Below are positions 5,301-33,956 of a DNA stretch of 64,000 nucleotides, one piece after another (position 1 is the stretch's first letter; each line of letters starts with the position of its first letter). Position numbers and translations under genes: made by a program. The stretch spans positions 7,195,501 to 7,259,500 of the forward strand of contig NC_020126.1 in the NCBI RefSeq assembly GCF_000331735.1. The letters are read 5' to 3'. Under the pieces are notes generated by a model. That model saw only the letters and a program-made list of their open reading frames with translations, had not been told where the DNA came from and did no database searches. Origin of the DNA: Myxococcus stipitatus DSM 14675 (GTDB taxonomy: Bacteria > Myxococcota > Myxococcia > Myxococcales > Myxococcaceae).

Positions 5301-6002
5301 CCGCGCCGTGCGCGTCGCGGCCTCCACCGTGCGCCCTCGCCCCAACTCCGTCGCCAGCGCGGACGCGAGCCTGCACCCCGTCCCCCGGCGCTCTGGCGCG
5401 CGCACCAGCCGCTGCCCCCGCAGCACGCGCACTCGCTCCGGCGTGGCCAGCACATCCGCCAGCCCGTGTTCGTCCGGCAGGTGCCCGCCCTTCACCAGCA
5501 CCGCGCCAAAGCCATGCGCCAGCAGCGCGATGGCGGCCTCTCGCGCCGCCTCCACCGAGTCCGGCACCTCGCGCCCCAGCAGCCACCCCGCTTCATCCAG
5601 GTTCGGCGTGAGCATGACGCGCGGCCCCGCGAGCGACAGGTAGCGCCTCGCGGACAGCCGGGACAACAGCTGTCCTCGTGAAGTGCGCACCACCGGGTCC
5701 ACCACCCACCACGCCCCCGTCCCCTTCAGCCCCGCACTCGCGGCGGCGAGCTGCGCGGGGCCCGGCACCATGCCCCACTTCACCGCCTGCACCCCACCCA
5801 GCTCCCGCGCCGCCGTCAACTGCGCGAGCACGACACCCGGCGGAGCCGCCTTCCACGAGAAGGTCGTCCGCCCCTGCGCCGTCTGCGCCAGGGGCACCGC
5901 CACCGGCTGCCCCCCCAGCGCTCGCACCGCCGCGACGTCCGCCAGGAGCCCCGCCCTGCCCGTGGGCTCGAGCCCCGCCAACAGCACCACCCGAGGACTC
6001 AC
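5262..6002 (-). CDS. thiD: Hydroxymethylpyrimidine/phosphomethylpyrimidine kinase-like protein
   Basis: This 246-residue ribokinase-fold kinase matches ThiD, which phosphorylates hydroxymethylpyrimidine to its pyrophosphate in thiamine synthesis. Visible motifs are the N-terminal GLEPTGRAGLLADVAAV (usually GxDPSGGAG), KWGMVPG, VVDPVV, TPNLDEAGWLLG, VLVKGGHLP and the anion-hole GTGCRLASALATELGRG. The GTG start at 6002 overlaps the upstream hydrolase stop by four bases; a longer frame to 6089 would run deep into that gene. The changed N-terminal motif leaves some doubt about substrate. Confidence 0.82.
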   Translation of the reverse strand: MSPRVVLLAGLEPTGRAGLLADVAAVRALGGQPVAVPLAQTAQGRTTFSWKAAPPGVVLAQLTAARELGGVQAVKWGMVPGPAQLAAASAGLKGTGAWWVVDPVVRTSRGQLLSRLSARRYLSLAGPRVMLTPNLDEAGWLLGREVPDSVEAAREAAIALLAHGFGAVLVKGGHLPDEHGLADVLATPERVRVLRGQRLVRAPERRGTGCRLASALATELGRGRTVEAATRTARALVVRYLRTGHE

Positions 6003-6763
6003 CGCCGATGCTCTCGCGCCTTCTGCACGAAGGACTTGTAGAGCCCCACATGCACGGGAATCGTCGTGGACATGTACTCGGGATGCCACTGCACCCCCAC
6101 CGCGAAGGCATGCACCGTGGACTCGATGGCCTCCACCACGCCATCCGGCGCCAGCGCGGTGATGCTCACATCCGTCCCGGCGCTGCGCACCGCCTGATGG
6201 TGCGTGGAGTTCACCATCAGCTGCCCGTGCCCCACCGCCTCCGCCAGCAACGTGCCGCTGCGCACGTCCACCGGGTGCTGCGGCTGCGTCCGGTCATGCT
6301 TCTGCTCGTGCTCGCGCGCGCCCTGCACCTCGCGGCCGATGTCCTGGAACAGCGTGCCGCCCAGCACCACGTTGAGCAACTGCATGCCGCCACACACGCC
6401 CAGCACCGGCATGTTGCGCTTGAGCGCGCCGCGCATCAGCGCCGCCTCGAACGCCGTGCGGCCCTCCTTCAGCGCGCCCAATCCCTCGCGGGCCGTCTCG
6501 CCATAGGCCTCGGGAGGAATGTCGAACGCGCCACCGGTGACGAGCAGCCCCGACACCCGGTCCAGGTACGCATCCACGCACGTGGGGTCATCCGCGTACG
6601 GCAACACGAAGGGAAGCCCGCCTGCGCGCAGCACCGCCTCCGCGTAGGGCACCTTCAGCTCGTACCGCGCGAAGGGCGAGTCCTCCGGCTGGCTCCAATC
6701 CGGGGTGATGCCAATGTTCGGCCGCCGGGGCGGCTGGCCATGATGTCGCGGGTGATTGTTCAT
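5999..6763 (-). CDS. Class I glutamine amidotransferase-like hydrolase (peptidase C26)
   Basis: This 254-residue protein resembles gamma-glutamyl-GABA hydrolases (PuuD-like), cytoplasmic enzymes that cleave gamma-glutamyl bonds. The catalytic triad is complete: nucleophile C124 in LGVCGGMQLLNV, and H227 and E229 in GVQWHPEY. The N-terminal NIGITPDW is typical of the family. It lies between thiE and thiD, 21 bases after thiE and overlapping thiD by four bases, so it is co-transcribed with thiamine genes. Whether it acts on a thiamine-related amide is unknown. Confidence 0.82.
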   Translation of the reverse strand: MNNHPRHHGQPPRRPNIGITPDWSQPEDSPFARYELKVPYAEAVLRAGGLPFVLPYADDPTCVDAYLDRVSGLLVTGGAFDIPPEAYGETAREGLGALKEGRTAFEAALMRGALKRNMPVLGVCGGMQLLNVVLGGTLFQDIGREVQGAREHEQKHDRTQPQHPVDVRSGTLLAEAVGHGQLMVNSTHHQAVRSAGTDVSITALAPDGVVEAIESTVHAFAVGVQWHPEYMSTTIPVHVGLYKSFVQKAREHRR

Positions 6764-6784
6764 GAGGGGGTCCGTCGGTCGAAC

Positions 6785-7441
6785 CTACCCCCCCACTCGC
6801 CCCTGTTCAAACGCACTGGCGAGCAGACGCACGCGCTCGGCGATGTCCTGGGCGAGCAGCGCATCCGAAACCACCGCGGCGCCATGCACGCCCGTCGCCG
6901 CCACCCACGGCATGTTGTCCAACCCCACCCCACCAATCCCCACCACCGGCAGAGGGCTCCCCTTCACCACGCGCGCGAGCCCCTCCACCCCCAACACCGG
7001 TGCGGGAACCTGCTTCGTCGTCGTGCCGAAGACGGGCCCCACGCCCACGTAGTCCGCGCCCGCCTCGCGCGCGGCGATGGCGCCCTCCACACCACGCACC
7101 GTCACCCCCACCAGGCGCCCAGGCCCGAGCAACGAGCGCGCCGCCTCGGGAGGCACATCCTCGTCGCCCACGTGCACGCCATGCGCATCCGAGAGCAGCG
7201 CCAGGTCCACCCGGTCATTGAGCAGGCACACCGCCCCCGCGCGCCGGCAGAGCTGGACGACCTGGCGAGCCACCTCCAGCGCCTCACGCACCGGCGTGCG
7301 CTTCATCCTCAGCTGCACCACCCGCGCCCCTCCCGCCAGCAGCCGCTCCGCCTTGGCCACCAGCGGCATGTCCGGCCGCACGGTGTCGTCACAAAGCAGA
7401 TAGGGGCCCGGGGGAAGCAGTGGACGAAGCGAGGCGTTCAT
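6785..7441 (-). CDS. thiE: Thiamine-phosphate synthase
   Basis: This 218-residue TIM-barrel enzyme joins hydroxymethylpyrimidine pyrophosphate and thiazole phosphate to give thiamine phosphate. The family motifs LLNDRVDLALLSDAHGVHVG, GVTVRG, ADYVGVGPVFGTTTK and VVGIGGVG are present. The usual QLREK motif reads QLRMK at about residue 44. The ATG at 7441 gives normal length; the frame continues to 7630 but would cross the divergent gene. It is the first gene of a thiE-hydrolase-thiD operon. No TPP riboswitch fits in the 93-base region upstream. Confidence 0.88.
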   Translation of the reverse strand: MNASLRPLLPPGPYLLCDDTVRPDMPLVAKAERLLAGGARVVQLRMKRTPVREALEVARQVVQLCRRAGAVCLLNDRVDLALLSDAHGVHVGDEDVPPEAARSLLGPGRLVGVTVRGVEGAIAAREAGADYVGVGPVFGTTTKQVPAPVLGVEGLARVVKGSPLPVVGIGGVGLDNMPWVAATGVHGAAVVSDALLAQDIAERVRLLASAFEQGRVGG

Positions 7442-7468
7442 CGGCACCAGGAAGACGGGACGGCGGCG

Positions 7469-7494
7469 TTGACAGGCGGCCCCTCTGCTATAAG
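7469..7494 (+). promoter_or_regulatory. Possible promoter for the 7535-8849 operon
   Basis: TTGACA at 7469-7474 and TATAAG at 7489-7494 match sigma-70 elements well, but the spacer is only 14 bases, shorter than the usual 16-18. It lies 40 bases before the ATG at 7535, and the same region must serve thiE on the other strand. Confidence 0.4.
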
Positions 7495-7534
7495 GTGGCG
7501 CGCTGTTTTCCAAGCAATTCTGAGGATTTGAAAC

Positions 7535-7888
7535 ATGGCGGACACGGTGGACCCCAAGTATCTCGATAAGCGCACCGCGGAGCGGTACCTGCGCTCGGGC
7601 CAGTTGGACGAGAAGGCGCTGGAGCGCCACCTCAAGGGCCTGCCGGACGTGGCGGACAAGGCCACCCCGGTGGAGACGCTCATGGTCGACGACGTCGAGG
7701 ACTACGACGACGAAGACGATGATGAGGACATGGACGACGAGGACGAGAGCGACGACGAGGTCTCCAACGACGAGGCCGACCTGGAAGCCGTCGCCTCCGC
7801 CGCCGACACCTCCGACGCCGCCCCCTCCTCCGACGTCGCGGGCGTCCCTGATTCTTCCGACGAGGGCGGGGAGTCCAACACCCCATGA
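7535..7888 (+). CDS. Hypothetical protein with acidic low-complexity tail
   Basis: Function not recognised. The 117-residue product has a short helical N-terminal part (DPKYLDKRTAERYLRSGQLD, residues 6-25, the sort of sequence that could bind a partner) and then a strongly acidic, disordered tail of Asp/Glu runs from about residue 52. There is no signal peptide or membrane segment. GAGGA nine bases before the ATG supports the start. The stop overlaps the next start by four bases, so it is coupled to the DUF1844 gene. Confidence 0.8.
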   Translation: MADTVDPKYLDKRTAERYLRSGQLDEKALERHLKGLPDVADKATPVETLMVDDVEDYDDEDDDEDMDDEDESDDEVSNDEADLEAVASAADTSDAAPSSDVAGVPDSSDEGGESNTP

Positions 7889-8199
7889 GCCCCGTGGACG
7901 AGAAGCGCGGCGAGACCTTCGTGATGCGGGGGGAAGCGCGCTCCGCGTCCGAGGAGGCCATCTCCTTCAGCACCTTCATCGTGGGGCTGGGCACCGCGGT
8001 GCTCATCTACCTCGGTGATGCTCCGAATCCGGAGACGGGCCAGACGAGCAAGGACCTGCCGCTGGCCCGGCAGAACCTGGAGCTGCTGTCGATGCTGCGC
8101 GAGAAGACGCGAGGCAACCTCACCGTCGACGAAGAGAAGCTCTTCGACGGCCTGCTCGCGGACATGCGCCTGCGCTTCGTGGAGGCAAGCAAGCGGTGA
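7885..8199 (+). CDS. DUF1844 family protein
   Basis: This 104-residue protein carries the DUF1844 signature: ISFSTFIVGLGTAVLIYLGDAPNPETGQ near residues 26-53, then DLPLARQNLELLSMLREKTRGNLTVDEEKLFDGLLADMRLRFVE. The hydrophobic first part may associate with a membrane. The family is widespread in deltaproteobacteria-type genomes and has no assigned function. It is coupled by ATGA overlaps or near overlaps to the genes on both sides. Confidence 0.85.
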   Translation: MSPVDEKRGETFVMRGEARSASEEAISFSTFIVGLGTAVLIYLGDAPNPETGQTSKDLPLARQNLELLSMLREKTRGNLTVDEEKLFDGLLADMRLRFVEASKR

Positions 8200-8849
8200 T
8201 GGCGTCGCCTTCGAAGTCGGGCAGCTTGCCCAAACCCATCCGCTTCGCGGCCATCACCTGCATGGTGCTCGCCGCGCTCACCGGCTGGGCGGCCATCAGC
8301 GAGGCCACGGAGCTGGCCCACTTCTTCGAGTCCCGCTCACGGCGGATGGAAGCGGGCTCGCCGCTCCTGCTGGGCAATGACCCGGCCGACTTCCAGCGGC
8401 TCCTGGAGGCGCAGTACCAGGCCCTGGAGCCCATGCGCGAGCCGCGCGCCCTGCTGATGGGGGTGATGGCCATCGCGTGCGCCGTCGTCTTCGTGTCCGC
8501 GGGCCGCATCCTCCGGCCTCATGGGATGCCCGCGGAGCGGATCCGTCTGATGCTCGGACGCGCGGCAATCACAGTGGCGGTGCTGCGCACCATCGACGGC
8601 GCGCAGTGGGCCGTGGTCGCCCGCCGCACCAGCCACGCCGTCTCGCAGATGCTCATCAAGCGCCCCGAGTACCAGGACGCCGCCGCCGCGGAGATGGTCT
8701 CCACCGTGACGCAGGTGATGAGCCTGGGACTCACCGTCGCCGGAACCGCCCTCATCGCGGGCACGTTCGCCCTGCTGGGACAGTTCTTCCGCAGCGACTC
8801 CGTGCGCGAAGCCCTGGTGACGAGGGACCGCACCGCGGCCGACTCGTAG
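8196..8849 (+). CDS. Hypothetical membrane protein
   Basis: Function not recognised. The 217-residue product has hydrophobic segments at about residues 17-36, 85-105 and 172-195 and a less hydrophobic one near 120-140, so it is an inner membrane protein. Either GTG 8196, overlapping the DUF1844 stop, or ATG 8199 can be the start; GGAGG at 8181 serves both. It is last in a three-gene coupled operon that starts at 7535. Confidence 0.72.
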   Translation: MMASPSKSGSLPKPIRFAAITCMVLAALTGWAAISEATELAHFFESRSRRMEAGSPLLLGNDPADFQRLLEAQYQALEPMREPRALLMGVMAIACAVVFVSAGRILRPHGMPAERIRLMLGRAAITVAVLRTIDGAQWAVVARRTSHAVSQMLIKRPEYQDAAAAEMVSTVTQVMSLGLTVAGTALIAGTFALLGQFFRSDSVREALVTRDRTAADS

Positions 8850-8859
8850 TCGCCCGCCG

Positions 8860-9573
8860 TCAGTGGGCGTGGGGCGCCACGGAGACGGGCAGCAGGGCCT
8901 CCAGCGCCGCGTCCGCGTCCGCTGGGGTGCCCTCCAGCACCAGCACCCGCCCCTGCGTCGCCAGGGGCAGCTTCAGCAGCTCCTGCCGTGACAGCCCGAA
9001 GACATGCGCCAGGTGCCCCATGGGCCACCGCGACTGCATGTGCTTGAAGGCCGCCTCGTCCAGGTCTTCCGGCTTGCCCTCGGGCAGGTCCACGTTCTCG
9101 TAGACCACCCGCTCGCCGCCCACGCGCCGACCGTTGCCGTAGGCGATGACTTCCTCGCCCTCGTCCGGGTCATACACGTACGCATGCACGGTGGCGTTGG
9201 CCGCGCGGGAGAGCAGCCGGGGCAGCGCATGGTGCGCGGCATACCAGTGGGCACCCGGGCGGCCCTGCGTGAAGGGGGCCACGTAGGCCAGCCGAACCAC
9301 CTTGCGGCGCCGATTGACCGACACGTGCAACCCAGTGGCGGCCAACGCGCCGTCCAGTTGCAAGGCTTCGCGGGCCTGCTGGAGCAGCTCCAGCCCGCCA
9401 AAGCTCTCGAGTCGAATGAGGTAACCGCCGTGCGCTTCCAGGTGTTCAGCCCCCCGAGGGTGGGCGCCGCCTATAACCGAGCCGAGCCCTCTCTGGCAAC
9501 TCCAGCACCTCGAAAAGCCAGCCGCTACCAGGAGTCCAAAGTATTCTGCTTGCGGCACAGACCCAGGCGCCAT
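8860..9573 (-). CDS. Hypothetical protein
   Basis: No family is recognised. The 237-residue product is soluble, with a central part (LHVSVNRRRKVVRLAYVAPFTQGRPGAHWYAAHHALPRLL is typical of its composition) and a segment that mentions no catalytic motif. The frame opens at 9603; ATG 9573 is chosen because the first residues beyond it lack any support. The codons before about residue 40 are less GC-rich than the rest and no GTG or TTG start lies between, so the true N-terminus is uncertain. It is divergent from clpB. Confidence 0.6.
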   Translation of the reverse strand: MAPGSVPQAEYFGLLVAAGFSRCWSCQRGLGSVIGGAHPRGAEHLEAHGGYLIRLESFGGLELLQQAREALQLDGALAATGLHVSVNRRRKVVRLAYVAPFTQGRPGAHWYAAHHALPRLLSRAANATVHAYVYDPDEGEEVIAYGNGRRVGGERVVYENVDLPEGKPEDLDEAAFKHMQSRWPMGHLAHVFGLSRQELLKLPLATQGRVLVLEGTPADADAALEALLPVSVAPHAH

Positions 9574-25605: not shown

Positions 25606-26034
25606 TCAGGCACTCTGGAGCATCAGCCGCTCCACCACCGAGCGCACCTCCCGCAGCCGGGACGGGTCCGTCACCGCGACGAAGATGGTGTCGTCGCCCG
25701 CCACGGTGCCCGCGAGCCCCGGCACCTCCGGCTCCCGGTCCAACGCCGCCGCGAGCGCGGGCGCGTAACCCGGCGACGTCCTGACGACGAGCATGTTGGG
25801 CGGCGCCTCGATGATGCGGATGCGTTGGCGCTCGGCGGTCACCGTCGGAGGCTCCACCGACGCGATGCGCTGGTAGCGCCCACCCACCTTCTGGACGCCC
25901 AGCTTCTTCAGCCGCCGCGACAGCGTGGACTGGCTGGGCGCCTGCCCCTCCGCCTCCAGCAGCTCCTGCAAGACCGCCTGATCGCTGATCTCCTGCTCCG
26001 TGATGAGCCGAAGGATTTCGTCGTCCAGGTTCAT
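25606..26034 (-). CDS. argR: Arginine repressor
   Basis: This 142-residue protein matches ArgR, which binds operator DNA as an arginine-filled hexamer. The N-terminal winged helix (EISDQAVLQELLEAEGQAPSQSTLSRRLKKLGVQKVGGRY in pieces, residues 14-53) is followed by the hexamerisation domain ending with GTVAGDDTIFVAVTD, where GDDT is the arginine-contact motif. The ATG at 26034 gives family length; the frame upstream crosses the arginine operon promoter and is not coding. Confidence 0.93.
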   Translation of the reverse strand: MNLDDEILRLITEQEISDQAVLQELLEAEGQAPSQSTLSRRLKKLGVQKVGGRYQRIASVEPPTVTAERQRIRIIEAPPNMLVVRTSPGYAPALAAALDREPEVPGLAGTVAGDDTIFVAVTDPSRLREVRSVVERLMLQSA

Positions 26035-26045
26035 TTTCACCAAGA

Positions 26046-26190
26046 TGCATGGAGGTGAATTTCCATGCAAGGCGCCTGAATGATCGGCCTCGGGGAACAA
26101 TGCTCTTGCGCGCCGCGTCCTTCTGCATAATATCCGCCGCCTATTCGCGGAACTGCACGCATACGCGTGCATATTCATCCACGTATGCAT
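26046..26190. promoter_or_regulatory. Divergent argR/arg operon control region with ArgR-like sites
   Basis: Three inverted repeats built on TGCAT-like halves are present. The first is TGCATGGA / TCCATGCA at 26046-26069 with an 8-base spacer. The second is TGCACGC / GCGTGCA at 26154-26171 with a 4-base spacer. The third is TGCATA / TATGCA at 26168-26189. A CATAAT at 26126-26131 may be a -10 element. The first site is 12 bases from the argR start and the others are just before argF'. Confidence 0.6.
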
Positions 26191-26217
26191 CCGGTCCAGG
26201 CCGGGGAGCGCAGGCCC

Positions 26218-27228
26218 ATGAAGCACGTCACCCACATCAAGGATCTCGGCCCCGAGGGCGTAGAGGCAGTCCTCGCGCAGGCGGAGGCCTGGAAGCAGAA
26301 GGCTCCGGGCTCGCTCTTCCCGGGAAGCATCCTGGGCATGGTGTTCTTCAACCCGTCCTTGCGCACGCGCACCTCGTTCGAGGCAGTGATGCTGCGCGGG
26401 GGAGGCAGCGCCATCATCCTGGATGTGGGCGCGGGCGTCTGGAAGCTGGAGCACCGCGAGGGCGCGGTGATGAACGCGGACCGGGCCGAGCACCTCAAGG
26501 AGGCCGCCCCCGTCCTGTCGCGCTTCGTGGACATGCTGGGCGTGCGGACCTTCTCCCAGGGCGGCGGCGACGAGGAGGACGAGGTCGACCCCATCATCAA
26601 CGCCTTCCGCAAGTGGGCCACGGTGCCGGTGGTCAGCATGGAGTCCGCGCGGGAGCACCCCTGCCAGGGCCTGGCGGACGTGCTGACCTTGCGCGAGAAG
26701 TTCGGCACCACGAAGAAGCTGCCGGTGACGCTGACGTGGGCGCCGCACATCAAGCCCCTGCCCAAGGCGGTGCCCAACTCGTTCCTCCTGAGCGCGGCGG
26801 CGGCCGGGTGCGAGGTCCGCGTTGCCCACCCTCCCGGCTTCGAGCTGCACCCAGCGGTGCGCGCGGAGGCGGAGGCCTACGCCAAGGCCACGGGCGGCAG
26901 CATCACGTACACGCATGAGCAGGACGAGGCACTCGCGGGCAGCCGCGCCGTGTACGCCAAGTCCTGGGGCCCGACGGCCGCGGCGGCCTTCTCGCCCAAC
27001 GACGTCACCGCGCTGTTGGCGTCCTACTCCGGTTGGATGCCCACGCTGCGCACCATGTCCCGCGCGGCGAAGGATGCCGCGTTCCTGCACTGCCTCCCCG
27101 TGCGCCGCAACGTGGAGGTGGCCGACGAGGTCCTGGACCACCCGAGCAGTCGCGTGGTGGACGAGGCCGGCAACCGGTTCCACGTCCAGCGCTCCCTGCT
27201 CCACTGGATGCGCTCGCAGTCCCGCTGA
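26218..27228 (+). CDS. argF': N-acetylornithine-type carbamoyltransferase
   Basis: This 336-residue enzyme belongs to the transcarbamylase branch that acts on N-acylated ornithine rather than ornithine. It has the carbamoyl-phosphate motif FFNPSLRTRTSFE, the HPCQGLADVL motif, WAPHIKPLP and the HCLPVRRNVE segment. The product would be N-acetylcitrulline (or N-succinylcitrulline), to be deacylated by the enzyme encoded two genes later. At the position that separates acetyl- and succinyl-ornithine enzymes it has Ala. It starts the arginine operon and diverges from argR. Confidence 0.88.
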   Translation: MKHVTHIKDLGPEGVEAVLAQAEAWKQKAPGSLFPGSILGMVFFNPSLRTRTSFEAVMLRGGGSAIILDVGAGVWKLEHREGAVMNADRAEHLKEAAPVLSRFVDMLGVRTFSQGGGDEEDEVDPIINAFRKWATVPVVSMESAREHPCQGLADVLTLREKFGTTKKLPVTLTWAPHIKPLPKAVPNSFLLSAAAAGCEVRVAHPPGFELHPAVRAEAEAYAKATGGSITYTHEQDEALAGSRAVYAKSWGPTAAAAFSPNDVTALLASYSGWMPTLRTMSRAAKDAAFLHCLPVRRNVEVADEVLDHPSSRVVDEAGNRFHVQRSLLHWMRSQSR

Positions 27229-27279: not shown

Positions 27280-28206
27280 GTGCCCTTGTCACCCGACCCG
27301 TACTCCGCGCTGCGCCACGCCGCGCGTTATGTGCAGCAGTTCCGGCGCAAGACGTTTGTCGTGAAGCTCGGCGGCGCCATGCTGAGCGACCCCCGCCTGC
27401 GCCGCTCCGCGTGCGAGCAGATTGCCCTGCTGTGGACCTTCTCCATCCGCCCCGTCGTCGTGCACGGCGGCGGCCCGGAGCTGGACACGCTCTGTGACGC
27501 CCTCCACCTGCCGGTGGAGAAGGTGGCTGGCCGCCGCGTCACCTCCGCGCCCGTGCTGGACGCGGCGAAGATGGTGCTCGCCGGCAAGCTGCACACGGAC
27601 CTGCTCGCGGACCTCCAGGCGGCGGGCGTGCCCGCGGTGGGCCTGAGCGGCGTGGACGCCGGGCTCATCAAGGCGCGCAAGCGGCCTCCTGTCATGGTGA
27701 CGGAGCCGGGGGCCACCGAGGGCAGGCTCGTGGACTACGGGCTCGTCGGCGACATCGAGCAGGTGGACACGCGCGTCGTGGAGCACCTGCGCTCCGCGGA
27801 CTACGTGCCGGTCATCGCGCCCCTCTCCGGCGGCGTGGATGGCTCCGTCTACAACACCAACGCAGACACCGTGGCGGCGGCGCTGTCGGTGGCCCTGTCG
27901 GCGGAGAAGCTCTTCTTCCTGGTCCAGGTGCCGGGCCTCCTGCGCGACTTGAACGACCCGACGTCGCTCGTCACGCTGGCGAACCTCACGGACCTGGCGA
28001 CGATGGAGAACCAGGGCACCATCTCCGGCGGCATGCGTCCCAAGGCGCACGCCATCCGCCACGCGTTGGTCGGCGGCGTGGGCAGCGTGCACCTGGTGAG
28101 CGGTGTGGCGCCCAACGCGCTCCTCGAGGAGGTCTTCACCAACGAGGGCAGCGGCACGATGGTGGTCCGCGAGAAGGCTCCGAAGAACGCGGGGACCGCG
28201 GGATGA
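27280..28206 (+). CDS. argB: Acetylglutamate kinase
   Basis: This 308-residue amino acid kinase phosphorylates N-acetylglutamate, the second step of arginine synthesis. Motifs are VVKLGGAML, VVVHGGGPELD, the substrate segment AGRRVTSAPVLDAAKMVLAGKLHTDLL, and NTNADTVAAALSVAL. The start is GTG. There is no N-acetyltransferase domain fused to it, unlike the bifunctional enzymes of Xanthomonas. It overlaps the next gene by four bases. Confidence 0.9.
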   Translation: MPLSPDPYSALRHAARYVQQFRRKTFVVKLGGAMLSDPRLRRSACEQIALLWTFSIRPVVVHGGGPELDTLCDALHLPVEKVAGRRVTSAPVLDAAKMVLAGKLHTDLLADLQAAGVPAVGLSGVDAGLIKARKRPPVMVTEPGATEGRLVDYGLVGDIEQVDTRVVEHLRSADYVPVIAPLSGGVDGSVYNTNADTVAAALSVALSAEKLFFLVQVPGLLRDLNDPTSLVTLANLTDLATMENQGTISGGMRPKAHAIRHALVGGVGSVHLVSGVAPNALLEEVFTNEGSGTMVVREKAPKNAGTAG

Positions 28207-29264
28207 AGGCGGCGGAGCTGCTCCAGGCGCTGGTGGCCATCCCCAGCGTTTCGGGTGACGAGCGACTCATCGCGGACACGGTGTCCGGGTGGGCGGAGGG
28301 CTGGGGTGCGCGCGTCCAACGCAAGGGCCACAATGTGTGGTTCTCCGTGGGAAGCGGGCCGCGCCGGCTGCTCGTCAACTCGCACCTGGACACGGTGAAG
28401 CCGTGTGCCGGGTGGACGTACGCGCCCCACGCGCCCGAGTGGCGTGAGGACCGCCTGTACGGCCTGGGCAGCAACGACGCCAAGGGCTGCGTGACGGGGA
28501 TGCTCGTCGCGGCCCGGACGCTGCTGAAGGAAGGCGCGTCGCTCGGCGGAGAGCTTGTCTTCGCGTTCACCGCCGAGGAGGAGACTGGAGGCCAGGGCCT
28601 GGGCACGCTCCTGCCCGAGCTGGGCCCTCTCGACGCCGCCGTGGTGGGCGAGCCCACCAGCCTCAAGCCCTGCACGGCGCAGCGGGGCATGCTGCTCCTG
28701 CGCTGCACCGCGCACGGCAAGAGCTCCCACGTCGCGCACGCGCACAACGCGGGCGCGGTGAACGCCATCCACGTCGCGGCGGGAGACATCGCCACGCTGG
28801 CGGAGCTGCGCTTCCCGTCGCATCCGCTGTTGGGTGAGGCGCGGGCACAGGTGACGCAGATCTCCGGGGGGCTGGCGCGCAACCAGATTCCGGACGCGTG
28901 CGAGTTCTTCGTGGACCTGCGCACCACGCCGAGCATGGACCACGCGCAGGTGGCGACGGGCCTGGGCGGCGTGTTGAAGAGCGAGGTGAAGGTGCACTCG
29001 GCGCGGTACCTGCCGAAGGCGACGGCCTCGAATCAGCCCATCGTCCGGGCGGCGATGGCCGCGTCGGGCGAGCAGCCCGTGGGCTCCAGCACCACGTCCG
29101 ACTGGGCCTTCCTGGGGGAGCTTCCCACGGTGAAGGTGGGGCCGGGCGACACGCTGAGGAGCCACCTGGCGGACGAGTACCTCACCCTGGCGGAGCTGGA
29201 AGCCGGCGCCGCCTTCTACACGCGACTGTTGCGCGGTTACTTCGAGGAGGCGGCCCGTGGCTGA
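28203..29264 (+). CDS. M20 family acetylcitrulline/acetylornithine deacetylase (ArgE/LysK type)
   Basis: This 353-residue metallohydrolase has the M20 pattern: LVNSHLDTVKP, GLGSNDAKGCVTGML, FTAEEETGGQG and VGEPTSLKP. It is shorter than classical ArgE and closer to LysK. With an acetylornithine carbamoyltransferase in the same operon, its likely task is to release citrulline from N-acetylcitrulline. It starts inside argB (ATGA overlap) and overlaps argH by eight bases. Confidence 0.87.
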   Translation: MKAAELLQALVAIPSVSGDERLIADTVSGWAEGWGARVQRKGHNVWFSVGSGPRRLLVNSHLDTVKPCAGWTYAPHAPEWREDRLYGLGSNDAKGCVTGMLVAARTLLKEGASLGGELVFAFTAEEETGGQGLGTLLPELGPLDAAVVGEPTSLKPCTAQRGMLLLRCTAHGKSSHVAHAHNAGAVNAIHVAAGDIATLAELRFPSHPLLGEARAQVTQISGGLARNQIPDACEFFVDLRTTPSMDHAQVATGLGGVLKSEVKVHSARYLPKATASNQPIVRAAMAASGEQPVGSSTTSDWAFLGELPTVKVGPGDTLRSHLADEYLTLAELEAGAAFYTRLLRGYFEEAARG

Positions 29265-30621
29265 GACCCTGTGGGGCAAGGGTGCCGCGTTGGACGCGGT
29301 CATCCACCGGTTCACCGTGGGCGACGACCCCATCGTCGACCTGTCCCTGGCGCCGCACGACGCGCTGGGCAGCGCCGCGCACGCGCGCATGCTGGGCAAG
29401 GTGGGCCTGTTGAAGCCCGAGGAGTCCCGCACGCTCGTCGGCGCGCTGAAGACGCTGCACGACGAGGCGCGCGCGGGCCGCTTCACCATCCTCCCCGAGC
29501 AGGAGGACGGACACACCGCGCTCGAGGCCGCGCTGGTGGAGCGCATCGGCGAGCCCGGCAAGCGCATCCATCTGGCGCGCTCGCGCAATGACCAGGTGCT
29601 GCTCGCGACGCGGCTGTTCCTCCGCGAGGAGGTGCTCGCGCTGGGGGCGGGCGCCGTCAAGCTGGCGGAGGCGTTCCTCGACTTCGCGCAGGCGCACGCC
29701 CAGGTGCCGATGCCGGGCTACACCCACCTGCGTCGCGCGATGCCGTCCACGTTCGGCATGTGGGGCATGGCCTTCGCCGAGGGGCTGCTGGAGGAGTTGG
29801 AGGCGCTGCGCGGCGTGTGGGCTCGGCTGGACCGCTGCCCGCTGGGCGCCGCCGCGGGCTTCGGCGTGCCGCTGCCCATCGACCGGGAGTACGTCGCGCG
29901 GCTGCTCGGTTTCAGTCGGGTGCAGAGAAGCCCCATCGACGCGCAGAACGGCCGGGGCCGCCATGAGCTGGCGGTGCTGAGCTGGGCGTGCGGCGTCGCG
30001 AACACGCTGGAGAAGTGGCTGTGGGACGTGCAGCTCTACAGCACGGACGAGTTCGGCTTCCTCGGGCTGCCGGACGCGTTCACCACGGGCTCGTCCATCA
30101 TGCCGCAGAAGAAGAACCCGGACGTGGTGGAGCTGGCGCGAGGCCGCTGCCGCGAGCTGCGCGGACTGGCGCACCAGGTGGAGGCCATCGCGGGCGGACT
30201 GCCCTCCAGCTACCACCGAGACTTCCAGCTCCTCAAGCGCCCCACCCTCGCGGCGCTGACGTCCAGCCGCTCGCTGCTGGACGTGCTGACGCGGCTGGTG
30301 CCGGTGCTGCAAGTGAAGGCGGACGCCGCCGCGCGCGCCTGTGACGACACGCTGTATGCGGCCCACCATGCGTACACGCTGGTGGCGGGTGGACAGGCGT
30401 TCCGCGATGCATACCGGCAGGTGGGCCGCGAGCTCGCCGACGGCACGTTCCGCCCGGACCGCGAGGCACTGACGGCCACCCACCTGGGTGGCGCGGGCAA
30501 CCTGGGCCTGCCCCAGGCCCGAGAGGAGCTGGCCGCCGCGCGCGCCTGGCTCGACGACACCCACCACGCGCTGGCCACCGCCTCCGCGCGCGTCTGGGAC
30601 CTGAACAACCCTTCCCCGTGA
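29257..30621 (+). CDS. argH: Argininosuccinate lyase
   Basis: This 454-residue member of the fumarase superfamily splits argininosuccinate into arginine and fumarate. It has the family signature GSSIMPQKKNPDVVEL near residue 284, plus RSRNDQVLLATRLFL and GYTHLRRAMPSTFG. The start is GTG, overlapping the deacetylase gene. The order argH before argG fits tight coupling in this operon. Confidence 0.95.
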   Translation: MAETLWGKGAALDAVIHRFTVGDDPIVDLSLAPHDALGSAAHARMLGKVGLLKPEESRTLVGALKTLHDEARAGRFTILPEQEDGHTALEAALVERIGEPGKRIHLARSRNDQVLLATRLFLREEVLALGAGAVKLAEAFLDFAQAHAQVPMPGYTHLRRAMPSTFGMWGMAFAEGLLEELEALRGVWARLDRCPLGAAAGFGVPLPIDREYVARLLGFSRVQRSPIDAQNGRGRHELAVLSWACGVANTLEKWLWDVQLYSTDEFGFLGLPDAFTTGSSIMPQKKNPDVVELARGRCRELRGLAHQVEAIAGGLPSSYHRDFQLLKRPTLAALTSSRSLLDVLTRLVPVLQVKADAAARACDDTLYAAHHAYTLVAGGQAFRDAYRQVGRELADGTFRPDREALTATHLGGAGNLGLPQAREELAAARAWLDDTHHALATASARVWDLNNPSP

Positions 30622-30632
30622 GGAGTGAAGTG

Positions 30633-31826
30633 ATGAGCAAGAAGAACGTGGTGCTGGCCTTCTCCGGCGGACTCGATACCGCTTTCTGCACGGTGTACCT
30701 GCGCGAGCAGGGCTACACCGTCACCACCGTCACCGTGGACACCGGTGGCTTCCCGCCCGAGCAGCTGGCGAGCATCGCCGCCCTGTCCGCGAAGCTGGGC
30801 GCGGTGGAGCACATCAAGGTGGACGCGCGCGCCACGCTGTTCCAGGGCTACCTGCGCCACCTCATCGCCGGCAACGTGCTGCGCGGCCAGCTCTACCCCC
30901 TGAGCGTGTCCGCCGAGCGCGCGTGCCAGGCGGTGGAGGTCGTGCGCGTGGCGCGCGAGAAGGGCGTGCAGTCGTTGGCCCACGGCAGCACCGGCGCCGG
31001 CAATGACCAGGTGCGCTTCGACGTGGCCTTCCGCTCGCTGGCGGGAGACCTGGAGCTGCTCACCCCCATCCGCACGCTGGGCCTGAGCCGTCAGCAGGAG
31101 CTGTCGTACCTGGCCGAGCGCGGCATCCACATGCCGCCGAAGCTGGGCTCCTACTCCGTCAACGAGGGCATGTGGGGCACGTCCGTGGGCGGCAGCGAGA
31201 CGCTCAACTCGTGGAGCGCGCTGCCCGAGGCGGCCTTCCCCGCGGGTGAGATTCCCACGGACCTGAAGCCTCGGCCCCTCACGGTGGGCTTCGAGCAGGG
31301 CATCCCCACGTCGCTCGACGGCAAGGCCCTGAGCCCCGTGGACCTCGTCGAGGCGCTCAACGTCCTGGGCCGCCAGTACGGCATCGGCCGGGGCGTGCAC
31401 CTGGGCGACACCATCCTCGGCATCAAGGGCCGCGTCGGCTTCGAGGCCCCCGCCGCGCACCTGCTCATCACCTCGCACCGCGAGCTGGAGAAGCTGGTGC
31501 TGTCGGGCAAGCAGCTCTTCTGGAAGGAGACCGTGGGCAACCTCTACGGCTCGCTGCTGCACGAGGGCCACTTCTTCGACCCGCTGGTGAAGGACCTGGA
31601 GGCGTTCCTCACGTCCTCGCAGGAGCGCGTGACGGGCGAGGTGCGGCTGATGCTCCACCCGCGCTCGATGGTGGTGGAGGGCGTGCGCTCACCGCACTCG
31701 CTGATGGACGCGAAGGTGGCGACGTACGGCGAGGCCAACGTGTTGTGGACAGGCTCGGAAGCGGCGGGCTTCGCCAAGCTGTACGGCGTGGCGCAGATGC
31801 TCTCGCACCGGGCGAAGGGAGGCTGA
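30633..31826 (+). CDS. argG: Argininosuccinate synthase
   Basis: This 397-residue ATP-pyrophosphatase joins citrulline and aspartate. The PP-loop AFSGGLDTAFC is at residues 8-18, and AHGSTGAGNDQVRFD and YSVNEGMWGTSVGG follow. ATG 30633 is preferred over the GTG at 30618 because AGGAG lies seven to twelve bases before it and the protein then begins with the family N-terminus. It follows argH by 11 bases. Confidence 0.95.
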   Translation: MSKKNVVLAFSGGLDTAFCTVYLREQGYTVTTVTVDTGGFPPEQLASIAALSAKLGAVEHIKVDARATLFQGYLRHLIAGNVLRGQLYPLSVSAERACQAVEVVRVAREKGVQSLAHGSTGAGNDQVRFDVAFRSLAGDLELLTPIRTLGLSRQQELSYLAERGIHMPPKLGSYSVNEGMWGTSVGGSETLNSWSALPEAAFPAGEIPTDLKPRPLTVGFEQGIPTSLDGKALSPVDLVEALNVLGRQYGIGRGVHLGDTILGIKGRVGFEAPAAHLLITSHRELEKLVLSGKQLFWKETVGNLYGSLLHEGHFFDPLVKDLEAFLTSSQERVTGEVRLMLHPRSMVVEGVRSPHSLMDAKVATYGEANVLWTGSEAAGFAKLYGVAQMLSHRAKGG

Positions 31827-31830
31827 CATC

Positions 31831-32892
31831 ATGAAGGTCTTCGTCGACAAGGTCGGAAGTGTCACCCGCAACCTGGGCCTGGGCCGCACGGTTCACCTCA
31901 CCACCGAGGTCAAGGCGGAGGAAGGCGCCGTCATCGCCGTGCGCATCCATGGCGAGAAGAGCGTCTACAACCAGCTCGAGGACTGCAACGGCCGGCTGGT
32001 GACGCTGCACGGGGGCGACATCATGGTGGGCGCCCTGGGTCACCGCAACGCGCTGCACGGCTACGAGGGCGTGGTGCCCGAGTCCGTCGTGGTGGGCCAG
32101 CGGCTCAACGTGCTCAACATGGGCGGCGTCATCGGCAAGTGCACCTCGCACAACCCGGGCGTGGGCGTGCCCTTCGAGGCCGAGGTGCTGGGCCAGGTGC
32201 TGGAGTTCCCGGAGCTGATGTCGCGCGAGGGCCAGCCGGCGCACATCTCCTCGGGCGCGCTGAAGGGCGGCTCGACGCCGGTGAAGTGCCCCGTCGTCTA
32301 CGTCGTGGGCACGTGCATGAACGCGGGCAAGACGTACGCGGCCAGCGCGATGGTGCGCAAGCTGGCGCAGGCGGGCTACCGCGTGGGCGGCGCGAAGCTG
32401 ACGGGTGTGTCGCTGATGCGCGACACGCTGAGCATGCAGGACTCCGGCGCGGACGTGGTGATGGACTTCACGGACGCGGGCATCGTGTGCACGGGGCCTC
32501 GCACGGCGGCGCGCGTGGCGCGGGTGCTGTTCTCCGAGATGGCCGCGGCGGAGGTGGACGTCATCGTCGCGGAGACGGGTGACGGCATCATGGGCGAGTA
32601 CGGCGTCCAGGCGATTCTCGCGGACCCGGAGCTCAAGGGCCTGGCGGGCGCGTGGGTGATGTGCGCGAACGACCCGGTGGGCGCCGCCGGCGGCGTGCGC
32701 CACCTGAAGGAGACGTACAGCATCGACGTGGACGTGCTCGCGGGTCCCGCCACGGACAACGCGGTGGGCGTGCGCTTCGTCGAGCAGGTGGTGGGAGTGC
32801 CCGCGCGCAACGCTCGCGCGGACGCGGCGGCACTGGGTGGTCTCATCCTGGAGAAGCTCGCGCCCAAGCTGGGTGCGGGGAGGAAGTCATGA
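31831..32892 (+). CDS. P-loop protein of unknown function in the arginine operon
   Basis: This 353-residue cytoplasmic protein has an N-terminal beta-rich half and a C-terminal nucleotide-binding domain with Walker A VVGTCMNAGKTYAAS at about residue 155, then GGAKLTGVSLMRDT and VIVAETGDGIMGEYG, which recalls dethiobiotin synthetase and DUF1611 proteins. The DUF1611 hallmarks GQTGI and EGQGS are not visible, so membership is doubtful. It sits between argG and argC, four bases after the former and overlapping the latter, so it should have a role in arginine metabolism. Confidence 0.75.
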   Translation: MKVFVDKVGSVTRNLGLGRTVHLTTEVKAEEGAVIAVRIHGEKSVYNQLEDCNGRLVTLHGGDIMVGALGHRNALHGYEGVVPESVVVGQRLNVLNMGGVIGKCTSHNPGVGVPFEAEVLGQVLEFPELMSREGQPAHISSGALKGGSTPVKCPVVYVVGTCMNAGKTYAASAMVRKLAQAGYRVGGAKLTGVSLMRDTLSMQDSGADVVMDFTDAGIVCTGPRTAARVARVLFSEMAAAEVDVIVAETGDGIMGEYGVQAILADPELKGLAGAWVMCANDPVGAAGGVRHLKETYSIDVDVLAGPATDNAVGVRFVEQVVGVPARNARADAAALGGLILEKLAPKLGAGRKS

Positions 32893-33956
32893 CGCGGGCG
32901 CATATCTACATCTTGGGAGCCTCCGGTTTCGGCGGCGGCGAGCTCTTGCGGATTCTCTCCGGCCACCCCGCCGTGGCGGGCATCCGCGTCGTGTCCCGGC
33001 ACCACGCGGGCGCGCCCGTCCACAAGGTGCACCCGCACCTGCGCGGACTGGTGGACGCGACCTTCGAGGCGGAGCCGGACTGGCGCTGGCTGGCGGACTC
33101 GCAGCAGCCGGTGGTGTTCAGCGCGCTGGGGCACGGCGAGCTGGCCACGCAGTTCCTGGCGCTGGAGAAGAAGTGGGCCGAGGTCGGCCTCGCCGACAGG
33201 GTCCTGCTCGTGGACCTGTCCAGCGACTTCCGGCTGGACCACCCGGGCCGGTACGCGGGCGCCTACGGCAAGCCGCACCCCGCGCCAGACCTGCTGGGCA
33301 CCTTCACGTACGGCCTCACCGAGTGGAAGCGCGAGGAACTCAAGGGCGCGCGTCGCATCGCGAACCCCGGCTGCTTCGCCACCGCGGTGCAGTTGGCGCT
33401 GCTGCCCATCGCGTCCACGCCGGGCCTGGGCCTGCTGGCCGTGTCGGGTGTCACGGGCTCCTCCGGCTCCGGCTCCCTGCCGGGCGAGGGCACGCACCAC
33501 CCCACCCGCGCGCATGACTTCCGCGCGTACAAGCCGCTGGAGCACCAGCACGAGGCGGAGGTGGAGGTCATGCTGGTGGCGCACGGCGCCCAGCGTCACC
33601 GGCTGGCCTTCGTGCCGCACTCGGCGCCCATGGTGCGCGGCATCTTCGCCACCGTGCAGTTCGAGTGGCCCGAGCACGGCGGCGCGGTGGTGACGCAGTC
33701 GCTGACGGAGAAGTTCCGCCGCTATTATGAGGGCTCGAAGTTCGTCCGCATCGTCGAGGGCACGCCCCGCATCGCCGCCGTCACGGGCAGCAACTTCTGC
33801 GACATCTCCGTCGCGACGAAGGGCCGCTCCGTCGCCGTCATGGCCGCGCTGGACAACCTGGTGAAGGGCATGGCCGGCCAGGCGGTGCAGAACTTCAACG
33901 TGTCCCTGGGCCTGCCCGAGGACACCGGTCTGCGGCAGGCGGCCTGCTACCCGTAG
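32889..33956 (+). CDS. argC: N-acetyl-gamma-glutamyl-phosphate reductase
   Basis: This 355-residue NADPH-dependent enzyme reduces N-acetylglutamyl phosphate to the semialdehyde. It has the nucleotide motif YILGASGFGGGELLR at residues 7-21, the catalytic Cys C162 in ANPGCFATAVQLA, and the VTGSSGSG and H-rich segment GEGTHHPTRAHDFRAY. ATG 32889 overlaps the stop of the preceding P-loop gene. It is the last gene of the arginine operon. Confidence 0.93.
   Translation: MTRAHIYILGASGFGGGELLRILSGHPAVAGIRVVSRHHAGAPVHKVHPHLRGLVDATFEAEPDWRWLADSQQPVVFSALGHGELATQFLALEKKWAEVGLADRVLLVDLSSDFRLDHPGRYAGAYGKPHPAPDLLGTFTYGLTEWKREELKGARRIANPGCFATAVQLALLPIASTPGLGLLAVSGVTGSSGSGSLPGEGTHHPTRAHDFRAYKPLEHQHEAEVEVMLVAHGAQRHRLAFVPHSAPMVRGIFATVQFEWPEHGGAVVTQSLTEKFRRYYEGSKFVRIVEGTPRIAAVTGSNFCDISVATKGRSVAVMAALDNLVKGMAGQAVQNFNVSLGLPEDTGLRQAACYP

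Follow-up and report, generated by a model that had tools for sequence, protein, structure and literature searches.

Arginine operon of the window

The arginine operon of Myxococcus stipitatus DSM 14675 raises the question of what a P-loop protein encoded within it does, and of which enzyme acylates glutamate, the first step of arginine synthesis. The operon lies in the stretch of 64,000 nucleotides analysed here (the window). Its genes follow the order argF', argB, argE, argH, argG, X and argC on the + strand, where X (31831-32892) is an open reading frame encoding the P-loop protein of 353 aa (Table 1). Between the stop of argG at 31826 and the start of X at 31831 lies a gap of 4 bases, and the ATGA at 32889-32892 doubles as the stop of X and the start of argC. 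These coordinates agree with the initial annotation, which had placed X between argG and argC with this gap and overlap; the Walker A motif that it had pointed out in X is likewise present, as GTCMNAGKT.

Table 1. Features of the arginine operon in the window, with the evidence for each.
Feature	Position	Strand	Evidence
X, proposed N-acyl(succinyl)-L-glutamate synthase	31831..32892	+	ORF, context in the best 80 of at least 566 relatives, AlphaFold2 model
X N-terminal beta domain, residues 1-145	31831..32265	+	separate model, Foldseek, VIA
X Walker A GTCMNAGKT, residues 160-168	32308..32334	+	sequence, conservation in 40 sequences
argF', acetyl/succinylornithine-group carbamoyltransferase	26167..27228	+	NF003384 445 bits; alignment to solved chains
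argB, N-acylglutamate kinase	27280..28206	+	TIGR00761 201.6 bits
argE-like M20 deacylase	28203..29264	+	PF01546; TIGR01892 139.4, TIGR01900 134.6 bits
argH, argininosuccinate lyase	29257..30621	+	TIGR00838 296.6 bits
argG, argininosuccinate synthase	30618..31826	+	TIGR00032 306.9 bits
argC, N-acyl-gamma-glutamyl-phosphate reductase, ATGA overlap with X	32889..33956	+	TIGR01850 327.5 bits
argR, arginine repressor, divergent from the operon	25606..26034	-	PF02863 63.3, PF01316 38.8 bits

Acylglutamate synthases in the genome

The whole genome of M. stipitatus, a single contig of 10.35 Mb, was searched for known synthases. ArgJ gave no match in it, and the ArgJ model was positive in 10 of 14 control genomes. 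The NAT domain PF04768 (Xanthomonas/vertebrate type) is absent from the genome; it occurs in 10 of the 195 Myxococcota genomes and in none of the 14 controls. The full-length ArgA model TIGR01890 matched with its kinase part only, leaving the acetyltransferase end unmatched: model positions 4-282 of 429 correspond to the operon ArgB, and positions 20-296 to a weaker match elsewhere that contains an internal stop. The best match to the short ArgA (NF005921) had an E value of 4.8e-5, far under the cut-off, in a search without positive control, given that this model exceeded its cut-off in 0/195 genomes of the phylum and 0/14 control genomes. The initial annotation had noted that argA and argJ are missing from the window and had named a genome search as a check; for the models tested (ArgJ, PF04768, TIGR01890 and NF005921) the absence holds genome-wide. 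A hidden standard synthase (ArgJ, NAT, full ArgA or short ArgA) is ruled out for these models. Outside Myxococcota, the rival synthase tested was ArgJ only.

The genome also contains 49 matches to the GNAT model PF00583. No ArgA-type family was detected for them in the 25 listed of 42 matching NCBIfam families, which are RimI, resistance and other GNAT families. These 49 matches would accommodate a reading in which X binds ATP or CoA and serves the succinyl-type enzymes as a helper, be it a regulator, a channel or an assembly factor, while an unlinked ArgA2-like GNAT adds the acyl group. The P-loop fold group includes NTPases with roles in regulation and maturation (HypB, SRP proteins, MobB), and according to the available parts of two papers (PMC7311316, PMC9026213) the candidate for this step in Bacteroidetes is ArgA2.

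Sequence families and conservation of X

Scans with Pfam and NCBIfam found no model reaching its cut-off for X. The closest were DUF1611_C (PF07755; 22.5 bits against a gathering cut-off of 25, covering residues 146-187 only), mobB (23 bits, cut-off 76.2) and bioD (TIGR00347; 17.5 bits, cut-off 83.3). Among 40 sequences scanned, DUF1611_C was matched at E <=0.01 in 22, with a best value of 5e-5. In the same scans, ArgJ (PF01960), ArgA (TIGR01890) and NAT (PF04768) gave no match to X at E up to 0.1, and a GNAT match was not found either. A phmmer search of X against the sequences of solved structures returned no match up to E 1; the X profile returned bioD at E 0.23-0.24 and a periplasmic protein at E 0.5-0.64.

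Two orthology assignments were considered and rejected. X is not a BioD ortholog, as it scores far below the bioD cut-off, nor a DgcN ortholog, as it stays below the PF07755 cut-off and its likeness to the genome's own DgcN-like protein is limited to the P-loop (31 common columns; hhalign probability 0.7 percent, E 0.079). The DgcN-like gene is a separate one located just beyond the window end, with 402 bits to 7xrj, and X is therefore not the DgcN of this genome. We do not place X in DUF1611.

In the alignment of the 40 sequences, which come from several phyla, 66 residues are invariant, many of them polar and distributed over both domains. The invariant positions of the Walker A motif are G160, T161, C162, M163, G166, K167 and T168. 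Those of the beta domain include K43, Y46, E50, R55, R72, Y78 and N96, and those of the P-loop domain include K167, T168, K189, D198, D204, E248, D251, D281 and D309. This pattern is as expected of an enzyme, which speaks against the helper reading, and the conservation in both domains would fit an active site located between them. The more distant relatives at loci L034-L037 have GSSM in the P-loop where X has GTCM, so that a catalytic role of Cys162 cannot be universal.

Predicted structure of X

The AlphaFold2 model of X has a mean pLDDT of 94.9 and a pTM of 0.92. In this model, residues ~150-353 form the P-loop domain, which matches the DUF1611 protein TM0796 (2g0t; Z 16.4, rmsd 2.7, 171 aligned residues), CTP synthetases (Z up to 16.3) and dethiobiotin synthetases (Z up to 15.6) as tied top matches, followed by the other DUF1611 structure 2obn (Z 15.4) and by DgcN (7xrj, N-acetyltransferase by its entry title; Z 14.7). 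Foldseek placed SRP GTPases and BioD at the top ranks, and a library of viral structures yielded CTP synthase and weak P-loop hits. The fold match to DUF1611 is not specific, given the equally high scores of CTP synthetase and BioD. Residues 1-145, modelled alone, reached a pLDDT of 93.7. No clear solved relative of this N-terminal domain was found (best Foldseek E 0.84, best VIA Z 3.2), which does not prove a new fold.

Two resemblances proposed in the initial annotation thus stand in part. The faint resemblance to DUF1611 extends to the common P-loop fold and stops short of PF07755 membership, and the dethiobiotin synthetase-like second half is borne out as a fold and not by the bioD model. 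Compared with the DUF1611 proteins, X has in addition a beta domain of 145 residues without a clear match, and its gene lies in an arginine operon. From BioD it differs in the same way, by its operon and by the extra beta domain. DgcN is a D-glutamate N-acetyltransferase and hence a precedent for the acylation of glutamate. The dgcN gene is treated in PMC12363236, which serves here, with the title of 7xrj, as a source for this precedent.

Since DUF1611, CTP synthetase and dethiobiotin synthetase are tied and DgcN scores lower, the fold by itself does not single out acyl transfer. X might instead be an ATP-dependent ligase that activates a carboxylate (succinate or acetate) or the acceptor for attack by the amine of glutamate, with no acyl-CoA involved. 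In favour of this, the P-loop domain matches CTP synthetase and BioD no less well than DUF1611, and the Gly, Lys and Thr of Walker A are invariant; against it, a P-loop domain of this kind is also present in DgcN, an N-acetyltransferase by name, and a canonical P-loop is no proof of ATP use. We regard a ligase as very unlikely. Just as little credence is given to its more specific form, an unrecognised two-domain P-loop synthetase of several phyla (Myxococcota, Holophagae, Gemmatimonadota, Planctomycetota and others), which would join L-glutamate and succinate at the expense of ATP, without acyl-CoA or a GNAT, and would have co-evolved with the succinylornithine carbamoyltransferase branch.

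Gene neighbourhoods of X relatives

A profile search of named genomes revealed at least 566 relatives of X, of which the best 80 were kept, picked by X alone. In these best 80 of at least 566, X was beside argG or argC in 80/80 loci, so that its position is beyond chance. Within the same 80, argG was found <=600 bases upstream of X in 72 and argC <=600 bases downstream in 77; an argF' match was present at 66 loci, and argF', argB, argC, argG and argH occurred together with X at 58. The carriers among these 80 belong to Myxococcota, Acidobacteria (Geothrix, Holophagaceae), Gammaproteobacteria (Lysobacterales), Planctomycetota (Phycisphaerae), Gemmatimonadetes, Elusimicrobia, Armatimonadetes, Bdellovibrionales and others, and many are MAGs. 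Some genome names look doubtful: the X genes assigned to Comamonas sp. (L076), a Klebsiella pneumoniae MAG (L147) and a Xanthomonas sp. MAG (L102) resemble those of other lineages, and that of L076 is 90% identical to X of the window.

Gene order varies between lineages, with X retained. The Myxococcus relatives and Geothrix have argF'-argB-argE-argH-argG-X-argC; Phycisphaerae, Gemmatimonadetes and Elusimicrobia have argG-X-argC-(argD)-argF'-argB-argE-argH; and locus L117 has argF'-argB-X-argC. In three of the eight Acidobacteriota X loci sampled, X, argC and argB were found without argF' in the stretch read. A gap of 1.0-1.8 kb between argC and argF' was present in 13 of the 23 loci inspected for gaps, and a class-III aminotransferase, the expected argD, was identified in all nine gaps tested. 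Five operons (L126, L140, L142, L150 and L154) have the order argG-X-argC-argD-argF'-argB-argE-argH with no other gap >450 bases. As their seven other genes account for seven steps, X is left for the eighth, the N-acylation of glutamate. This leaves no other gene for the step in these operons and argues further against a helper function.

When plain identity distances, uncorrected for common descent, are compared pairwise, X follows the other six arg proteins (r 0.91-0.97) about as closely as these follow one another (0.90-0.96).

Distribution of X and ArgJ

Mutual exclusion with ArgJ is a feature expected of an acylglutamate synthase, and it was found in both phyla sampled. Among 195 Myxococcota genomes, X is present in 59, ArgJ in 90 and both in none; ArgJ thus occurs in 0/59 X genomes vs 90/136 others (Fisher P 5e-21, relatedness not corrected). 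One of the 60 X genomes listed, G016, was set aside, with an X match of 30% identity and 79 bits and with ArgJ present. Of the 96 genomes in the family to which the window belongs, 53 carry X without ArgJ; ArgJ is found in 40 of the remaining 43, and three have neither. None of the 59 X genomes of Myxococcota has the NAT domain, and 57 of them have an argF' above the NF003384 cut-off; in the other two, X is located at a contig end. X, ArgJ and NAT are all absent from 39 of the 195 genomes, which indicates that other solutions or incomplete genomes exist.

The Acidobacteriota sample consisted of 297 genomes drawn evenly around Geothrix. X scores were bimodal, with 68 genomes at >=242 bits and 12 with a best match of 119-165 bits; for this reason the 12 low scorers of 80 were left out of X. 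ArgJ was detected in 0/68 high scorers, in 5/12 low scorers (G408 with an 87-bit fragment only) and in 106/217 remaining genomes, that is, in 0/68 X genomes vs 111/229 others (P 1e-16). The Fisher P values of both phyla overstate independence, because the genomes are related. The sampled gene contexts support the split between high and low scores: arg genes were beside X in 8/8 sampled genomes at 242-379 bits, and an arg operon was found for 0/8 sampled low scorers (119-162 bits), one of which adjoins a 37-bit M20 match. ArgJ was also absent from all 49 genomes covered for a set of 50 named X-carrier loci.

A second group of X-like proteins, at 79-165 bits, is represented by L229-L236 in Acidobacteriota and L039 in Myxococcota. 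Where sampled, it lies outside arg operons, and its coexistence with ArgJ is possible.

The alternation of X with ArgJ, an enzyme of the same step, adds to the evidence against X as a helper of an unlinked GNAT, and we consider that function rather unlikely. X is probably an acylglutamate synthase, by whatever chemistry.

Acyl specificity of the neighbouring carbamoyltransferase

According to the available part of PMC4581275, N-acetylornithine and N-succinylornithine carbamoyltransferases differ at three positions, with E92, N185 and K302 in the former vs A/S/P/V/Q, P and V/I/E in the latter. In the accessible text of the GapMind paper, S, P, A or V at the corresponding position 90 indicates the succinyl type (PMC7311316). 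Aligned to solved N-acetylornithine carbamoyltransferase chains, the argF' of the window has Ala107, Pro199 and Glu317 at positions 92, 185 and 302 (X. campestris numbering) and is therefore of the succinyl type at all three. NCBIfam NF003384 names the same protein N-acetylornithine carbamoyltransferase, far above its cut-off; this model probably mislabels a succinyl-type branch.

The three positions were then read in 74 carbamoyltransferases linked to X, namely those of L033-L036 and L040-L043, 65 of L075-L154 and the window, with six controls besides. Two of the 74 come from genomes counted twice (L033 = L117 and L042 = L078), and matches <=150 bits were left out (L128, 79 bits). Glu92 was found in none of the 74, Pro185 in 72 and E, V or I at 302 in 68, and 65 satisfy all three succinyl criteria. 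The exceptions are Lys302 in six, Ala185 in two and Thr92 in four proteins; Thr92 is absent from the published residue list as available in PMC4581275. Five further carbamoyltransferases of Acidobacteriota have no Glu92, have Pro185, and have E or I at 302. All six controls, from genomes without X, have E/N/K, and five of these genomes possess the NAT domain, the sixth (G186) having none. In one operon without X (L214), consisting of argF', argG, argE, a 461-aa ArgB frame, argC and argH, the ArgB frame coincides with the NAT domain match. The residue counts and the distribution of NAT indicate that X travels with the succinyl-type branch and NAT with the acetyl-type branch. Proteins resembling argF' in genomes of family f11 (four read) were rejected as succinyl-type cases, having a different motif near position 92; we take them to be YgeW-like.

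The M20 neighbour does not decide on the acyl group, since the ArgE and DapE models score alike for it, both below their cut-offs. The possibility therefore has to be weighed that X is an N-acetylglutamate synthase using acetyl-CoA, in which case the product of argF' would be N-acetylcitrulline despite the residues. DgcN, the best functional precedent among the similar folds, is titled an N-acetyltransferase (7xrj), NCBIfam gives the neighbouring carbamoyltransferase an acetyl name, and the ArgE of M. xanthus is called an acetylornithinase in the accessible part of PMC1382215. A linear pathway with N-acetylglutamate synthase is likewise described for M. xanthus in the available text of PMC1865377. 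The succinyl-type residues at all three published positions in the window, and the six relatives without X that have E/N/K, five of them in genomes with the Xanthomonas-type NAT, point the other way. An acetyl donor appears unlikely to us, on a reading of acyl specificity through three residues, which is indirect.

Proposed role of X

The initial annotation had suggested that X might supply or regulate acetylglutamate, or form another acyl-amino-acid intermediate. A role in supplying or forming an acyl intermediate is strongly supported by the absence of the standard synthases tested, the gene context and the mutual exclusion with ArgJ, and a purely regulatory role is rather unlikely. Between the two products, the succinylornithine-type residues of the adjacent carbamoyltransferase tip the balance from acetylglutamate towards another acyl intermediate. 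X lies in arginine operons whose first step is otherwise unfilled as regards the synthases tested. We lean towards X being an N-acylglutamate synthase that transfers succinyl from succinyl-CoA to L-glutamate as the first step of arginine synthesis. Operon membership, conservation, the mutual exclusion with ArgJ, the absence of the tested synthases and the succinyl-type residues of the adjacent argF' are computed results; what we infer is the reaction, the acyl group transferred, CoA as its carrier and the part played by each domain.

In the proposed mechanism, X would catalyse the first committed step of arginine synthesis, in which the alpha-amino group of L-glutamate receives an acyl group; succinyl, donated by succinyl-CoA, is the most likely one. 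The product would pass through ArgB, ArgC and ArgD, the succinylornithine-type argF' and the M20 desuccinylase argE, and then through ArgG and ArgH. The P-loop domain may hold the acyl donor or ATP by its phosphates, and the N-terminal beta domain may help to form the pocket for glutamate and the acyl group.

Comparison with other systems

The Bacteroidetes ArgA2 (BT3761), a proposed N-succinylglutamate synthase, would act at the same step as X and, as with X, is accompanied by a succinylornithine-type carbamoyltransferase and arginine operon genes, according to the available parts of PMC7311316 and PMC9026213. However, ArgA2 is a GNAT, whereas X is a P-loop protein without a GNAT match. The Xanthomonas-type NAGS-kinase, a fusion of PF04768 and ArgB, belongs to an operon of similar make-up, which likewise includes an M20 enzyme and an argF' from the same family. 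Unlike the operons with X, this system has an argF' with E/N/K and a NAT-domain synthase, and X is absent.

Proteins resembling X or DgcN were also observed outside arginine operons. The plasmid NZ_CP085446.1 of Priestia megaterium KF18 (L157, 1730-10418) encodes an X-like P-loop protein of 26.6% identity in a cluster with a PEP-mutase (phosphonate), an OTCase, an M20 hydrolase, a TPP-enzyme pair and two ATP-grasps whose C-terminal domains are of the L-amino-acid-ligase type. Here, too, an X-like protein is accompanied by an OTCase and an M20 hydrolase, in a setting other than arginine synthesis. X-like genes annotated as DUF1611 are present on a Sulfitobacter plasmid (L155, 4956-6053) and a Paracoccus plasmid (L156, 4896-5948), each directly followed by a gene for an ABC transporter ATP-binding protein. 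In the organism's own genome, a DgcN-like DUF1611 gene (L044, 3200-5266, together with the gene directly after it) is followed by what, by eye, we take to be an enolase-superfamily epimerase, and the two are probably a DgcN/DgcA pair. Next to them, at 5331-9336 (-) of L044, are three similar tandem ORFs of 311-353 aa with an HELGH motif as in metalloproteases, recognised by eye.

Implications for arginine synthesis

Acylglutamate synthase is an already known reaction class. In the accessible parts of the open-licence literature, neither X nor a P-loop acylglutamate synthase was found named; as far as these sources go, what is new is the X family at the glutamate acylation step, its fold in this role and its distribution across phyla. 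In lineages that carry X, arginine synthesis seems to lack its first step. For Holophagaceae, the available text of PMC11561045 reports a complete arginine pathway in the Acidiparvus genomes and a lack of N-acetylglutamate synthase in the others, with Geothrix named. Geothrix carries X.

If X is the synthase, this gap would be closed in lineages of several phyla at once, acetyl labels would be corrected to succinyl in many genomes, and a P-loop type would be added to the GNAT and ArgJ types. Automated pathway prediction would also gain a clear marker in the combination of X with a succinyl-type argF'.
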